This document shows positions 24,055-32,423 of a DNA stretch of 44,409 nt, piece by piece; the first letter of the stretch is position 1, and each line of letters opens with the position of its first letter. Origin of the DNA: Candidatus Poribacteria bacterium (GTDB lineage Bacteria > Poribacteria > WGA-4E > PCPOR2b); contig JAJEAL010000009.1 in NCBI GenBank assembly GCA_022822785.1, positions 1 through 44,409 on the forward strand. The letters are read 5' to 3'. The notes under the pieces were generated by a model that had not been told where the DNA came from, searched no databases, and saw nothing but the letters and a program-made list of their open reading frames with translations. The translations under genes and the position numbers were made by a program.

Positions 24055-25350
24055 ATGACCGGCAACGAACTTGCTGAATGGGTGATTGACGCTCGTCAAC
24101 GCACCTTCGATATTGTTGCAGATCTCACCGATGAACAGCTAATGAGCCCATACCTTGCGATTGTCAACCCGTTGCTGTGGGAAATCGGTCATGTTGCATG
24201 GTTTCAAGAAAAGTGGGTCCTGCGGGACACATGCCAAGCGGAACCGATTCGTGAAGACGCCGATGCCCTTTGGGATTCGATTGCAATCTCCCACGAAACG
24301 CGCTGGGACTTGCCGCTGCCCTCTCGCGAGGGAACACTGTGGTATATGCGAGAAGTTCGGGACCGAATTGTGGACAGGCTGCAGCGCGGGGAGCCGAGTG
24401 AGGGACTAACCTATTTTGTCCGCTATACTACCTACCATGAAGACATGCACAACGAGGCGTTCACCTATACACGGCAGACCTTGGAATACCCTCCACCGCA
24501 TTTTACCACCGTCCCTGAAAGTCCTCCGGATATCGGAGGTGGTGCATTGGTGGGAGATGCCGAAATCCCCGGCGGCACGTTGATGCTGGGCGCCACACCT
24601 GACGAACCTTTCGTCTTTGACAACGAGAAGTGGGCACATCCAGTTGAAGTTAAACTGTTCTCCATTGCGCGTGCCGCTGTGACTCAATCTGAGTTTGCCG
24701 CGTTCACCGAGGAGGATGGCTATTGTCGCAAAGAGCTGTGGAGTGCGGCGGGATGGGAGTGGCGCGAGTCCGTGGACGCAATGCATCCGGTCTATTGGCA
24801 GAGGTCGGGTAACGGTTGGCTGCGTCGGCATTTTGACAAATGGGCCCCACTTGAGCCACACCTTCCAGTCATTCATGTCAACTACTATGAGGCCGAAGCT
24901 TACTGTCGGTGGGCAGGTCGGCGCCTCCCTACCGAAGCGGAATGGGAGACGGCGGCTGCTGCGGAATCAGATTCATCAGGCGACGGATTCTCCTCGCGGA
25001 AACGTCGTTTCCCTTGGGGCGATGAACTCCCAACGCCAGAACATGCTAACCTCGATTGGAATGCGATGGGCTGCATTGATGTGGGAGCGTGTCCAAAGGG
25101 GGATAGTGCCTTCGGATGCCGGCAGATGATTGGCAACGTTTGGGAGTGGACCAGCACCCCCTTCCGGCCGTATCCGGGCTTTGAAATTGATCCATACAAA
25201 GAGTATTCAGAGCCGTGGTTTGAAACTCGAAAGGTCTTGCGCGGCGGCTGCTGGACGACCCGCTCGCGTCTCCTCAGAAATACGTGGCGTAACTTCTACA
25301 CACCGGATCGCCGGGATGTGTTGGCGGGATTTCGGACTTGTGCAATTTAA
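24055..25350 (+). CDS. egtB: EgtB/SenA-type sulfoxide (selenoxide) synthase
   Basis: This 431-residue non-haem iron enzyme has an N-terminal DinB-like domain and a C-terminal FGE-sulfatase (SUMF1) domain. The iron ligands are clear: H46 (EIGHVAWF) and H128/H132 (TTYHEDMHNEAF), matching the H-x-x-x-H pattern of EgtB. The C-terminal domain shows VTQSEFAAF, RRLPTEAEWE, GNVWEWT and VLRGGCWTT. EgtB joins a sulfur donor to hercynine. The last stretch (NTWRNFYTPDRRDVLAGF, then RTC) reminds me of the EgtB_X/SenA (selenoneine synthase) signature more than the mycobacterial EgtB ending, so the chalcogen is open. The histidine trimethylase gene follows, separated by repeats. Confidence 0.88.
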   Translation: MTGNELAEWVIDARQRTFDIVADLTDEQLMSPYLAIVNPLLWEIGHVAWFQEKWVLRDTCQAEPIREDADALWDSIAISHETRWDLPLPSREGTLWYMREVRDRIVDRLQRGEPSEGLTYFVRYTTYHEDMHNEAFTYTRQTLEYPPPHFTTVPESPPDIGGGALVGDAEIPGGTLMLGATPDEPFVFDNEKWAHPVEVKLFSIARAAVTQSEFAAFTEEDGYCRKELWSAAGWEWRESVDAMHPVYWQRSGNGWLRRHFDKWAPLEPHLPVIHVNYYEAEAYCRWAGRRLPTEAEWETAAAAESDSSGDGFSSRKRRFPWGDELPTPEHANLDWNAMGCIDVGACPKGDSAFGCRQMIGNVWEWTSTPFRPYPGFEIDPYKEYSEPWFETRKVLRGGCWTTRSRLLRNTWRNFYTPDRRDVLAGFRTCAI

Positions 25351-25794
25351 TCGGTTCATGACGGCTCTTGTCTGAATCACGGATTAAACAGATGACACGG
25401 ATAACATTTAGTAGGTTTCAGAATGAATTAGACACTCTCAATACACAGCCAACCCCCTAAATCCCCAACCCCGCCTCCCAGAGGGCACCCGCCCCTTGAA
25501 CCCCCCTAGAGGGGTCGGGGGAAACCATTATCAGGGGGACTTTGGAAACTTCGAGCGGGTCGGAGTTGTCCGTTCCGAGACTAGGATTGGTAAATGTCTC
25601 CTTATTTCTCTGACTATTGAACCTTGGGGAAGTCTCATTCGATAAATGGTGCATGATAGACGCGCAATGAATTGCGCTACTACGAACGGGGGTATTTATT
25701 GGCACCGACCTGTCGATTTTAGAAAATCGACCTGCGGAGAGCCAACATCCATGTATGGCTCAGTGCTCATTGCCTCTATTCCTTTGGAAAATTG
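25351..25794. other. Repeat-rich intergenic region inside the histidine-betaine cluster
   Basis: No gene is seen. From left to right there is a split copy of the CCCCCTAAATCCCC ... TTATCAGGGGGACTT repeat (25453-25542) with a GC-rich insert. Next is the 20-mer GCAATGAATTGCGCTACTAC (25664-25683), shared with 4259-4278. Last is a stem-loop GTCGATTTT / AAAATCGAC (25712-25731). The minus-strand frame across 25457-25705 has repeat-derived composition and is not considered a gene. These elements may have split an originally tighter operon. Confidence 0.65.
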
Positions 25795-26799
25795 ATGATA
25801 AAACAAAGGCTACCGGTGGGTGTCAACCTAATTGAGGCACCCAAGCATTATCTACAACAGTCGTTAAAAGATGCGGTTGCAAATGGATTTCAAAAGACGC
25901 CAAAAAGTATTCCCGCGCTCTTCTTTTACGATGCAGCCGGTTCGCAGCTTTTCGAGCAGATTTGCAAACTGCCAGAATACTACCCAACGCGGACCGAGCA
26001 CAAAATCTTGACAGATTATGCGGAGGACATTATCTCAACGATCCCCGGTGAAGTGGAACTCGTCGAGCTTGGCAGCGGGAGCTCTACCAAAACACGGGTT
26101 CTTTTTGATGCAATTCTCACTAATCAAACCCATCTCCACTACATACCCACCGACATCTCCTCCGATTTTCTACTCGAATCGTCGATTGCCCTCAAAAACG
26201 AGTACGATCTGCTATCAATCACAGCGATTGCGGCGGAACATAACGATGCCCTTCGGTTACTGCCCAAAGGCGCTAGCCAATCTCGGCTTTTCCTTTTTCT
26301 TGGCAGCAACATCGGTAATTTCGAGCCGGAGGCGGCGGTTAATTTCATCGGACAGATTCGTCGCCGTATGTGCACAGAGGATTACCTGCTGATAGGGTTT
26401 GATCTCGTGAAAGACCGTCAGCTGCTTTTCGACGCCTACAATGACGATGCCGGTGTAACAGCCGAATTCAACAAAAATCTACTATTACGGGTTAATCGAG
26501 AATTGGACGGAGACTTCAATCTTGATCTGTTCGACCATTACGCACCGTTTATCGAGGAGTCCGCTCGCATTGAGATGCGTCTGATTAGTCGGTGTGCTCA
26601 GGGGGTGTATGTTGAGGATCTTGGACAACGGTTCGATTTTGAGCAAGGTGAATACATCCATACGGAAAACAGCTACAAGTATACGATTGAAGGGTTTGGT
26701 TCCCTCTGTGAAGCAGCAGGGTTGATGATGTGTAAACACTACCTTGATGCGCGTAGTTGGTTTGCAGTCGGGTTGTTCCGTAAAACCGTGGGAGGATAA
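25795..26799 (+). CDS. egtD: L-histidine N(alpha)-methyltransferase EgtD
   Basis: This 334-residue SAM-dependent methyltransferase makes hercynine (trimethylhistidine). The family blocks are FFYDAAGSQLFEQICKLPEY, YYPTRTEHKIL, the SAM-binding VELGSGSSTKTR, LFLGSNIGNFEP (its asparagine corresponds to the histidine-binding Asn of EgtD) and IHTENSYKYT, whose E-x-S matches the histidine-imidazole-binding pair. Length fits the family (about 320). The ATG at 25795 is chosen over the TTG at 25792. Its stop is only 4 bp before the ABC ATPase start, so the three genes to 29150 form an operon. Confidence 0.93.
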   Translation: MIKQRLPVGVNLIEAPKHYLQQSLKDAVANGFQKTPKSIPALFFYDAAGSQLFEQICKLPEYYPTRTEHKILTDYAEDIISTIPGEVELVELGSGSSTKTRVLFDAILTNQTHLHYIPTDISSDFLLESSIALKNEYDLLSITAIAAEHNDALRLLPKGASQSRLFLFLGSNIGNFEPEAAVNFIGQIRRRMCTEDYLLIGFDLVKDRQLLFDAYNDDAGVTAEFNKNLLLRVNRELDGDFNLDLFDHYAPFIEESARIEMRLISRCAQGVYVEDLGQRFDFEQGEYIHTENSYKYTIEGFGSLCEAAGLMMCKHYLDARSWFAVGLFRKTVGG

Positions 26800-26803
26800 G
26801 TGC

Positions 26804-27553
26804 ATGAACGAAAGCAAGATTACGCTGAGAAATGTCGAAATGCGTTTTGGCGATGTCGTTGCACTCGATTCAACGGACTTAGAAGTCGTTGAGGGTCAGA
26901 CAACGGTGCTCATCGGGCCGAGCGGTTGTGGCAAATCCACAATCTTGAGGCTTATCATCGGCTTGTTAACGCCGACCTCTGGGGTCATTGAGTTTGAGGG
27001 CAAACCAGTTTCGCAGGATAATATTCTTGCCTTGCGTCGTCGAATGGGCTACGTGATCCAGGATGGCGGACTATTTCCGCATCTGACCGCTGCCCAAAAT
27101 GTGACTCTTATGGCCAAACATCTCCAAACCGTTCAAGAGGAGGAACTTCAAGAAAAATTAGACGATCTCTGTGAACTGACACGCTTCCCAAAAGATGGGC
27201 TCACTCGTTATGCTGTCGAACTCTCCGGTGGACAACGCCAACGCGTCAGTCTGATGCGGGCCCTTACCTTAGACCCCGACGTTCTCTTACTTGATGAGCC
27301 GCTTGGGGCATTAGACCCGATGGTTCGTGCTTCTCTACAAACGGAGCTGAAGGAGATTTTCAACCGTCTCGGTAAAACTGTCATCCTGGTCACCCACGAC
27401 ATGGCGGAAGCGGGGTATATCGGAGACAGCATTGTTCTCATGCGAGCGGGTCGGATTGCCCAACAGGGAACGCTTGATGACCTCCGAGAGCGACCGGCTG
27501 ACGAGTTCGTCTCGGAATTCATCACCGCGCAACGGAGTTTAGTCCAGTTGTGA
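26804..27553 (+). CDS. ABC transporter ATP-binding protein, betaine/ergothioneine type (EgtV/OpuCA-like)
   Basis: This 249-residue ATPase has Walker A IGPSGCGKST, Q-loop GYVIQDGGLFPHLTA (the QDGGLFPH form is typical of osmoprotectant ATPases), signature LSGGQRQR and Walker B VLLLDEPLGALDP, followed by THDMAEA. It is shorter than OpuCA because it has no C-terminal CBS domains. The ATG at 26804 has GGAGG eight bases upstream, overlapping the end of egtD; the frame opens earlier at 26744, but that part is the egtD shadow. Coupling with egtD and the downstream permease suggests import of a quaternary amine such as ergothioneine. Confidence 0.9.
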   Translation: MNESKITLRNVEMRFGDVVALDSTDLEVVEGQTTVLIGPSGCGKSTILRLIIGLLTPTSGVIEFEGKPVSQDNILALRRRMGYVIQDGGLFPHLTAAQNVTLMAKHLQTVQEEELQEKLDDLCELTRFPKDGLTRYAVELSGGQRQRVSLMRALTLDPDVLLLDEPLGALDPMVRASLQTELKEIFNRLGKTVILVTHDMAEAGYIGDSIVLMRAGRIAQQGTLDDLRERPADEFVSEFITAQRSLVQL

Positions 27554-27578
27554 AATGAGGTAAAGGCAAGCGCAAACA

Positions 27579-29150
27579 ATGCAAAAACAACAGAAAGTAA
27601 ACGGCAAGCAGCAAAATATCTCGCGTTTCACGTTTGACGCATCACGCATCACATTTTACACACTATTTGTCCTTCTGTTCATTTATGCTCTACCTTCCGC
27701 CGATTGTCAGACAATCAGCGTTGGCTCCAAGCGATTCACGGAATCCTATGTCCTAGGTGAGATAGCGAAGAAACTGTTAGAAGACGCGGGTTATCAGGTG
27801 GAGTTTAAGCAGGGGATGGGCGGCACGATTATCGTGTGGGAAGCGCTACAGAATGGGGACATCGCCATGTATCCCGACTATACCGGAACCATTCAAGAGA
27901 CGATACTGAAATCGGTTACCCCAATGACCACTGAACAGATGCGGGCTGCACTCGCTAAACACGGTATCGGCATCACGGGTGAATTGGGGTTTAACAACAC
28001 CTACGCATTCGCCATGCGTCGCGCGCATAGTGAGTCGGAAAACATACATAAAATCTCCGACCTCCGTGACCATCCGAATCTCAATGCCGGATTCACGCAC
28101 GAATTTCTGGAGCGTAACGACGGGTGGGCACCGTTAAGTCGCCACTACGGTTTACAGATTAAACCGCGTGGGATGGAACACGCTCTGGCGTATGTTGCTC
28201 TGAATGAAGGCGAAATAGATCTCATGGATGCCTACTCCACCGATGCGAAACTTGTTGAATACGACCTGACTGTGCTCGAGGATAATCTCGATTTTTTTCC
28301 GAAGTACAACGCCGTATTCCTGTACCGGTTGGATATTAATCCGGCAGCGATCGACGCGATTCGTACGCTGGAAGGAGCGATTGATGAAGGGCTAATGACG
28401 CGCTTGAACGCCGAGGCTGAACGCACAAAAAACTTTGCAGCCGCTGTTTCGCTTTACTTCAGTGAAGCAGAAAGCAGAGAAGTACAGGTTGCCTCGGAAT
28501 CCTTTCTTTCTAAATTGGTACGATGGACGGGGCGCCACCTGATGCTCGTCGGTGTTTCGATGGTAATTGCGATTGTGGTCAGTATTCCCCTTGGCATACG
28601 TGCTAGCCGTCCCGGAATTCTCAGCCAAATCATTATTGGGGTGCCGGGAGTTATGCAAACCGTGCCATCGCTGGCACTGCTCGCGATACTTGTGCCGGTG
28701 CCGACGCTCGGAACAAGTCCGGCAACCGCGATTGTTGCGCTTTTTCTTTACAGTCTTTTGCCAATCGTTCGGAACACCGCTGCCGGGCTTCAGAATATTC
28801 CGACGCCGTTGAGGGAATCTGCGGCTGCGCTGGGACTCGAACCGTCCGCACAGCTCACGAAGGTGTATTTACCCATGGCGTCGCGGACAATTCTTGCGGG
28901 TGTCAAAACCAGTGCAATCATCAACGTTGGAACGGCTACGCTTGCTGCACTCATCGGAGCAGGCGGGCTCGGCGAACCGATTATCAGCGGGCTGGCGCTC
29001 AACGACGCAGAGGTTATTTTGCAAGGTGCTATTCCGGCGGCGTTGCTGGCAATCTTAGTTCAGGTCGGCTTCGACGCGCTTGACCGCTTGATTATCCCGA
29101 AAGGATTGCGTATAGAGGAGGTATCTCAACGAGCTGCGGCAGGAGAGTGA
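27579..29150 (+). CDS. Substrate-binding protein/permease fusion of a betaine-class ABC transporter (EgtU-like)
   Basis: This 523-residue fusion starts with a hydrophobic leader (24-42). A type-F betaine-binding domain (about 45-300) has ISVGSKRFTESYVLGEIAKK and the ligand-region motif MYPDYTGTIQET. The membrane part (about 312-520) has five or six spans and an EAA loop ESAAALGLEPSAQLTKVYLP. The binding domain is N-terminal, whereas described EgtU and OpuFB/BusAB fusions carry it after the permease. Residues 15-28 are encoded by a TTTCACG-type repeat. Position directly behind egtD and an EgtV-like ATPase suggests that ergothioneine, selenoneine or hercynine is the ligand; choline or glycine betaine remain alternatives. 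Confidence 0.88.
   Translation: MQKQQKVNGKQQNISRFTFDASRITFYTLFVLLFIYALPSADCQTISVGSKRFTESYVLGEIAKKLLEDAGYQVEFKQGMGGTIIVWEALQNGDIAMYPDYTGTIQETILKSVTPMTTEQMRAALAKHGIGITGELGFNNTYAFAMRRAHSESENIHKISDLRDHPNLNAGFTHEFLERNDGWAPLSRHYGLQIKPRGMEHALAYVALNEGEIDLMDAYSTDAKLVEYDLTVLEDNLDFFPKYNAVFLYRLDINPAAIDAIRTLEGAIDEGLMTRLNAEAERTKNFAAAVSLYFSEAESREVQVASESFLSKLVRWTGRHLMLVGVSMVIAIVVSIPLGIRASRPGILSQIIIGVPGVMQTVPSLALLAILVPVPTLGTSPATAIVALFLYSLLPIVRNTAAGLQNIPTPLRESAAALGLEPSAQLTKVYLPMASRTILAGVKTSAIINVGTATLAALIGAGGLGEPIISGLALNDAEVILQGAIPAALLAILVQVGFDALDRLIIPKGLRIEEVSQRAAAGE
27621..27660. repeat. TTTCACG-type microrepeat inside the permease-fusion leader
   Basis: The sequence reads TCGCGTTTCACGTTTGACGC followed by ATCACGCATCACATTTTACA. 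It resembles 4031-4055 (minus) and 2732-2753. Here it is translated in frame as part of the leader, just before the hydrophobic segment. Confidence 0.55.
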
Positions 29151-32018: not shown

Positions 32019-32423
32019 CTATTCTTCATCGTTTTCAACGAAATCGAGTGCAGCAGAATTCATACAGTAGCGAAGTCCTGTCGGTGGTGGGCCATCGTTG
32101 AAAATATGCCCTAAGTGTGCATCGCATCTATCGCACATAGCCTCTGTTCTAATCATGCCATAACTGGTATCGGTCTCTGTTTCAATGCTGTCTTCTGAAA
32201 TCGGTGCCCAAAAGCTGGGCCAACCGGTGCCTGAGTCAAACTTCGTCTCTGAACTGAATAGATCTGCCCCACAACAGATACATTGGTATACTCCCTTCCC
32301 CTTGGCGTTGTTATATTCGCCTGTGAAAGCGGGTTCGGTACCTTTTTGCCGGGTTACGTAATACTGTTCCGGGGTCAGTTGCTGCTGCCACTCTGTCTCC
32401 GTCTTTCTAATTTTCTCCGACAT
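32019..32423 (-). CDS. msrB: Peptide-methionine (R)-S-oxide reductase MsrB
   Basis: This 134-residue enzyme is the standard size for free-standing MsrB. Zinc cysteine pairs are C48/C51 and C97/C100, the substrate-site motif is [11 protein letters not shown], the histidines are in HLGHIFNDG, and the catalytic cysteine is C120 in [10 protein letters not shown]. It repairs R-methionine sulfoxide in oxidised proteins in the cytoplasm. It lies 56 bp after the Rieske gene on the same strand behind AAGGAG, so both may serve redox homeostasis. Confidence 0.95.

Follow-up and report, generated by a model that had tools for sequence, protein, structure and literature searches.

A poribacterial locus joining EgtD and a SenA-type enzyme to a putative importer of histidine betaines, with selenoneine as predicted product

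Results and discussion

The window analysed here, a stretch of 44,409 nucleotides from Candidatus Poribacteria (assembly GCA_022822785.1, contig JAJEAL010000009.1), carries between positions 24,055 and 29,150 the genes for a SenA-type enzyme of the EgtB superfamily, the histidine methyltransferase EgtD and an ATP-binding cassette (ABC) transporter, the latter composed of an ATPase and a fusion of substrate-binding domain (SBD) and transmembrane domain (TMD). The locus probably represents half of a selenoneine pathway together with a dedicated importer of histidine betaines, here selenoneine, a selenium-containing antioxidant whose sulfur counterpart is ergothioneine. More tentatively, we propose that the SBD-TMD fusions constitute an importer family that spans at least eight phyla, has hercynine-derived chalcogen betaines as its dedicated substrates and is kept by the makers of these compounds, that its poribacterial branch might be the first known bacterial selenoneine importer, and that the pathway enzyme SenB may itself be a selenoprotein in several genera.

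The tie to EgtD, recurring across phyla, suggests a candidate ligand for proteins that resemble generic betaine transporters and predicts that producers recapture their own antioxidant; if selenoneine is the ligand here, these bacteria would possess a dedicated uptake route for a selenium compound. The importers named for ergothioneine uptake are of the EgtU type, and BetP has been suggested in C. glutamicum, according to passages of two reports (PMC9732360, PMC12689799). No paper describing the present SBD-TMD family was found in titles, abstract openings and passages of a literature consisting mostly of journals outside subscription, and a search for a bacterial selenoneine transporter, likewise covering few subscription journals, returned none. 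The literature search yielded no report on Poribacteria together with ergothioneine, and for ovoselenol or OvsA the matches listed were only papers on cancer cell lines or ovarian tumours.

The features of the locus are as follows.

24055..25350, + strand: SenA-type selenoneine synthase (EgtB superfamily), above the cut-off of the SenA model NF041186
25351..25791, no strand: spacer before EgtD, 441 bp, longer than in five congeners
25792..26799, + strand: EgtD, histidine N-alpha-methyltransferase, above the cut-off of TIGR03438
26804..27553, + strand: ABC transporter ATPase, ABC_tran 125 bits
27579..29150, + strand: SBD-TMD fusion (substrate-binding domain and permease), OpuAC and BPD_transp_1
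27711..28448, + strand: substrate-binding domain, fusion residues 45-290, OpuAC, with betaine cage residues by alignment
28584..29099, + strand: permease domain, fusion residues 336-507, BPD_transp_1

All four open frames lie on the + strand, separated by 441, 4 and 25 bp. The first-pass annotation had described this row of genes (EgtB/SenA-type enzyme, EgtD, ATPase, fusion), which the open frames and family models bear out; its coordinates and the two short gaps proved exact, and the 441-bp spacer had gone unmentioned there. The corresponding spacer measures 84-86 bp in three congeners (G001, G004, G005) and 222-281 bp in two others (G002, G003). The EgtD frame offers a TTG at 25792 and an ATG at 25795, and the ATPase starts at the ATG at 26804, the mechanically called open reading frame opening earlier, at 26744. 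In Pfam terms the first enzyme consists of DinB_2 and FGE-sulfatase domains and EgtD is a Methyltransf_33 protein, scoring 365.8 bits on TIGR03438 (NCBIfam cut-off 290.9). Permease and ATPase show likeness to ProW/ProV and to choline systems, with all NCBIfam scores below the cut-offs; for the ATPase, ProV was the top model, yet the score stayed under its cut-off.

Chalcogen enzyme and predicted product

EgtD makes hercynine, to which EgtB adds sulfur in ergothioneine synthesis. The enzyme preceding EgtD in the window scored 511.8 bits on the SenA model NF041186 (cut-off 420) and 337.4 bits on the EgtB model TIGR03440 (cut-off 360), and the three other phylum members that were rescored all likewise passed the SenA cut-off and failed that of EgtB. 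Its residues H46, H128 and H132, which we take to be the three-histidine iron site, are invariant in 7/7 aligned sequences and line up with the histidines of EgtB and SenA. The C-terminal motif RNFYTPDRR is like those of OvsA and SenA (RNFYHPDR, RNFFEPHRR); EgtB of known structure has RNWDHPIRR at the corresponding motif, where the Asp helps to bind the sulfur donor.

On contig C25 of the same genome, the genes for SenB and SelD are neighbours; the two proteins score 407 bits (cut-off 300) and 367 bits (cut-off 125), respectively. No separate EgtB was found among the 13 candidates scored in this assembly, which is about 96% complete and in which the SenA model has a single hit at E≤1e-70; since seven EgtBs reach 325-362 bits with the SenA model, an EgtB in the genome should have shown. 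Selenoneine is the predicted product of the pathway in this genome because the enzyme exceeds the SenA but not the EgtB cut-off, SenB and SelD are both encoded, and no second EgtB-like protein turned up. Ergothioneine, the product assumed in the first-pass annotation, was rejected here on these same grounds.

The arrangement may be compared with the SenA/SenB/SelD pathway of Variovorax paradoxus. As there, SenA- and SenB-type proteins over their curated cut-offs are accompanied by SelD, and senA, selD and senB are contiguous in three phylum members (G007, G011, G014). Unlike that pathway, the genus of the present genome has senA together with egtD and the transporter and selD-senB elsewhere, and SenB of five phylum relatives contains an in-frame TGA.

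Co-occurrence and gene order within the phylum

Four queries, namely the transporter fusion (E≤1e-20), SenA, SenB and EgtD, were run against 84 genomes of the phylum. The fusion occurred in 14 genomes, SenA over cut-off in 15, EgtD over cut-off in 16 and SenB in 15 (14 over cut-off and one partial at a contig end, in G005). Every one of the 14 transporter genomes carries SenA and EgtD over cut-off as well as SenB, partial in G005; among the 70 transporter-free genomes, SenA with SenB was present only in G008, and EgtD was confined to G066 and G067. In G066, EgtD adjoins a true EgtB (561 bits), and neither SenB nor the transporter is present. Within the phylum, the importer goes with the selenoneine genes, the contrast between SenA and EgtB genomes being that of a single genome, G066. 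In G008, SenA, SenB and SelD (L064, L065) stand without EgtD or transporter, and joint loss or a fragmented assembly are both possible.

EgtD lies in the cluster of the transporter in 14/14 phylum genomes, in two gene orders: EgtD-ATPase-fusion in 12 and ATPase-fusion-EgtD in G064 and G065. Conservation of the gene order in relatives, on which the first-pass annotation had staked its reading, was thereby confirmed. In G006, G011 and G014, adjoining genes are separated by 1 bp or overlap by 4 bp. SenA is part of the transporter cluster in eight of the 14; in G011 and G014, senA-selD-senB and EgtD-ATPase-fusion stand side by side and converge.

Two clusters contain a gene for a TPR protein between ATPase and fusion, on the strand opposite to the operon (L062:6092-8026 in G001 and L066:9119-9967 in G003). 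A major-facilitator transporter gene that could code for a product exporter directly follows EgtD in G065 (L082:8896-9924), and G064 has an open frame similar to it (L083:7124-8158).

Linkage to EgtD beyond the phylum

A scan of GTDB with a 14-sequence alignment returned at least 592 confirmed relatives, and all homologue counts refer to the best 80 of these. Homologues occur, among others, in the culturable genera Dyella, Rhodanobacter, Luteimonas and Duganella. EgtD was located within 10 kb of 28 of the 80, on the same strand in 25 cases and with a gap between the domains of less than 300 bp in 18 and less than 2 kb in 26. By way of estimate, in a genome of about 4 Mb the chance that a 20-kb stretch includes a particular single gene is around half a percent. 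The 28 loci belong to at least eight phyla (Verrucomicrobiota, Planctomycetota, Thermodesulfobacteriota, Ignavibacteriota, Pseudomonadota, Spirochaetota, Myxococcota and Acidobacteriota), one locus being unassigned. With 14/14 linked genomes in the phylum and 28/80 homologues linked outside it, the pairing of EgtD and transporter is more than chance.

An EgtB/SenA-type gene lies within 10 kb of 21 of the 80 homologues. Of nine such neighbouring proteins that were rescored, seven exceed the EgtB cut-off and one (L158) exceeds none; that of a Planctomycetota locus (L154) is SenA-like, its 414.9 bits falling just below the cut-off of 420. The chalcogen enzyme beside the transporter is EgtB in most loci outside the phylum, L101 and L106 among them, and SenA in the present locus and in the one Planctomycetota operon.

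The Planctomycetota locus (L154:2372-8003) holds ATPase, SBD-TMD fusion, SenA-like protein, SenB (over cut-off) and EgtD in one direction, resembling a compact selenoneine operon with importer. In a metagenome-assembled genome of Myxococcales, an EgtD-EgtB fusion protein of 880 aa directly follows the transporter (L144:11280-13919).

The closer attachment of the transporter to EgtD than to SenA or EgtB could also be read as uptake of hercynine, the EgtD product and SenA/EgtB substrate, which would feed the chalcogen enzyme of the cell. The binding pocket, having no residue known to choose a chalcogen, would agree with this; EgtD makes hercynine in the same cell, however, and we regard hercynine as an improbable ligand.

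Unlinked homologues were followed in 49 genomes, drawn from 52 unlinked loci with L105 and L163 left out. EgtD was encoded elsewhere in 40 of the 49 (38 over cut-off); a looser Pfam model of EgtD matched 2/14 control genomes and the curated model 0/14. SenB over cut-off was present in 14/50 transporter genomes outside the phylum (8/28 linked and 6/22 unlinked). On a full-length tree of 93 rows, from which the partial L105 was omitted, the 28 linked non-phylum rows require at least 14 changes, compared with a mean of 23.6 in 100 shuffles; the linkage is therefore clustered, though with many gains or losses. As the 14 phylum members occupy two separate parts of this tree, the partnership with EgtD is maintained in more than one branch of the family.

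Binding pocket and relation to known transporters

By alignment, with residue roles taken from PMC9732360, the SBD possesses a betaine cage (Y101, N140, Y142, Y219, Y243) and a clamp (K51, T104, E175, R179), which are kept in 94 aligned sequences. N140 is found in 14/14 phylum members, and the position is N in 86 and D in 8 of the 94 rows. The two peptide patterns of the scan include pocket positions, Y101 and T104 in one and F138, N140 and Y142 in the other, so that outside the phylum the conservation of these five is in part a product of the search; K51, F53, E175, R179, W183, H201, Y219 and Y243 lie outside the patterns. W183 occurs in 91/94 rows and H201 in 94/94, at positions held by L and P in ProX, N and P in S. 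pneumoniae EgtU and Y and P in Lmo1422. When pocket residues of EgtD-linked and unlinked homologues were compared, no difference was found, and the pocket comparison does not, therefore, separate ligand classes. Taken together, the pocket appears to specify a betaine, and not which betaine.

The AlphaFold model has a mean predicted local distance difference test score of 69.5, with 63-95 per ten-residue block over residues 41-300. In structure comparison, H. pylori EgtU (Z 30.3), Lmo1422 (Z 29.7) and ProX all fell at Z 29-30, no more than about one Z unit from each other, a range that also includes a glycine betaine/carnitine/choline binder and choline and nicotine sensors.

The likeness to the EgtU importers of S. 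pneumoniae, L. monocytogenes (Lmo1422/BilE) and H. pylori comprises the fusion of SBD and TMD, the type II binding fold, an aromatic cage with N140, Y142, Y219 and Y243 in place, equivalents of E375 and R379 (E175 and R179 here) and an identity of about 35% to EgtU and Lmo1422. A plain EgtU-type importer that scavenges ergothioneine made by others would account for these similarities. The domain order is reversed, however: in EgtU the TMD (residues 1-230) precedes the SBD (passages of PMC9732360), and here the SBD (45-290) precedes the TMD (336-507). Moreover, G244 and F293, which favour ergothioneine in S. pneumoniae EgtU, are replaced by F53 and Y101 in 14/14 phylum members and with no exception among the covered of the 94 rows, W183 and H201 being kept in the family; the G244F substitution in EgtU is described to weaken ergothioneine binding about 100-fold (passages of PMC9732360). 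EgtU is described there for bacteria unable to make ergothioneine, and the present family is found with synthesis genes (PMC9732360). The phylum genomes with this transporter also have SenA and SenB, and the sole EgtB genome, G066, has no such transporter; this alternative is in our view very unlikely. The EgtUV-type assignment of the first-pass annotation was accordingly dropped, as the two pocket residues and the domain order, once examined, differed from EgtU.

Other features connect the SBD to ProX of Archaeoglobus fulgidus, with which it shares 33% identity. ProX Y63, Y111, Y190 and Y214 correspond to Y101, Y142, Y219 and Y243, and K13, F15 and R149 to K51, F53 and R179. ProX D109, at the base of the cage, is replaced by N140, L153 by W183 and P172 by H201. 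ProX is a separate binding protein; here the SBD forms one polypeptide with the permease, and its gene is linked to EgtD. In Lactococcus lactis, OpuA likewise has its SBD fused to the TMD, and the permease matches OpuA (7ahh) at Z 18.3, but the OpuA SBD (320-567) follows the TMD (86-278). In a tree of binding domains, calculated without L105 and L154, a branch separated 92 family rows from EgtU, Lmo1422 and ProX (Shimodaira-Hasegawa-like approximate likelihood ratio test 86), though the program warned of long branches meeting; of the two affinities that the first-pass annotation had opposed, EgtU and ProX, the domain appeared to group with neither.

These resemblances would suit a generic glycine- or proline-betaine importer that stands beside EgtD and serves osmoprotection or methyl supply, not the antioxidant: F53, Y101 and F138 match ProX and not EgtU, the first lobe is nearest to ProX, and permease and ATPase are of ProW/ProV- and choline-system likeness. 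Such a transporter would not be expected near EgtD in 28 of the 80 homologues, across at least eight phyla and in various orders, nor clustered with it in all 14 phylum members, and W183 and H201 distinguish the family from ProX; we consider this explanation unlikely.

Predicted mechanism and ligand

From the observed gene content, linkage, co-occurrence and pocket residues, we infer a ligand, a direction of transport and a cellular role for the system. EgtD would trimethylate histidine to hercynine, a step known from its family. SelD would supply selenophosphate, which SenB, encoded elsewhere beside SelD, would convert to a selenosugar, and SenA would join the selenosugar to hercynine, toward selenoneine; these steps are known from the named families and are predicted here by homology. 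Together, ATPase and SBD-TMD fusion would constitute an ABC importer; its aromatic cage and carboxylate clamp would fit a trimethylammonium-carboxylate compound. ABC systems with such a binding domain import, and for this reason an exporter was set aside. The importer may recapture leaked or secreted product or take product from neighbours. Active secretion of ergothioneine has been suggested in M. smegmatis, with no exporter identified in any organism (passages of PMC12689799), and a reason for recapture thus exists.

Since the family follows EgtD whichever chalcogen enzyme adjoins, the most likely ligand is the hercynine-derived product, selenoneine here and ergothioneine in other genomes. 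The first-pass annotation had held that synthesis and import of ergothioneine are joined in one operon, which would define the ligand of an otherwise generic betaine transporter. The joined genes, the conserved order and the recurrence of the link across phyla stand, and they make a histidine-betaine ligand a sound expectation; ergothioneine as the product of this genome falls.

Several observations weigh against selenoneine synthesis with import of the product. The nearest solved relative of the SenA-type enzyme in phmmer is OvsA (343 bits), followed by EgtB (274) and SenA (258), the name SenA-type resting on the curated model and the partners, for which the nearest solved relative is not a defining feature. 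The tight link is to EgtD, SenA being 48 kb away (G006) or on another contig (five genomes) in 6/14. The contrast between SenA and EgtB genomes is that of one genome, and the 14 transporter genomes come from four of ten families; the counts are thus confounded by shared descent. Nine of the 49 genomes with unlinked homologues show no EgtD at E≤1e-20. F53 and Y101 are as in ProX, a glycine/proline-betaine binder, unlike the ergothioneine-favouring residues of EgtU, and the first lobe of the SBD scores 70 bits with ProX versus 40 with EgtU.

SenB as a candidate selenoprotein

The SenB frame contains one TGA in G006, G007, G008, G011 and G014, and is conserved downstream of it; Cys is aligned with the TGA in G000, G001, G002, G009 and G012 (TGA 5/10, Cys 5/10). 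The copies with TGA are located as follows.

L051:7492-8424, - strand: SenB with in-frame TGA
L052:6680-7612, + strand: SenB with in-frame TGA
L054:7409-8341, + strand: SenB with in-frame TGA
L056:4617-5549, - strand: SenB with in-frame TGA
L064:2514-3446, - strand: SenB with in-frame TGA

The surrounding sequence resembles FEV(U/C)V(L/I)GHLRPVKDP, and the position precedes by nine residues a lysine that, by residue count, corresponds to K158, described as the catalytic lysine of V. paradoxus SenB (passages of PMC10891094). SelD carries a TGA in 12/13 genomes, and a selenocysteine tRNA of at least 70 bits was detected in 19/20. SenB of the five relatives is likely a selenocysteine-containing selenosugar synthase. 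Of 13 further SenB proteins, 7 have C at the TGA position and 6 have A, V, I or L, and V. paradoxus SenB has V; cysteine or selenocysteine is therefore not strictly required. A folding search for selenocysteine insertion sequence elements revealed no common hairpin separating TGA from Cys copies of SenB. No report of SenB as a selenoprotein was among the literature matches listed, and a term search of a 2026 review of prokaryotic selenoproteins did not return SenB or glycosyl (PMC13188914).

Neighbouring features

A promoter scan gave 7 sites against a shuffled mean of 5.2, and a terminator scan 11 sites against 6.3. Repeats near the locus are short, in two copies or as inverted pairs. About 3 kb downstream of the locus, at 32019-32423 on the - strand, a SelR-domain (MsrB-type) methionine sulfoxide reductase is encoded, adjoining a Rieske protein, and a frame whose start is similar to that of the SelR-domain gene lies near the cluster in four congeners (L062, L068, L069, L070).

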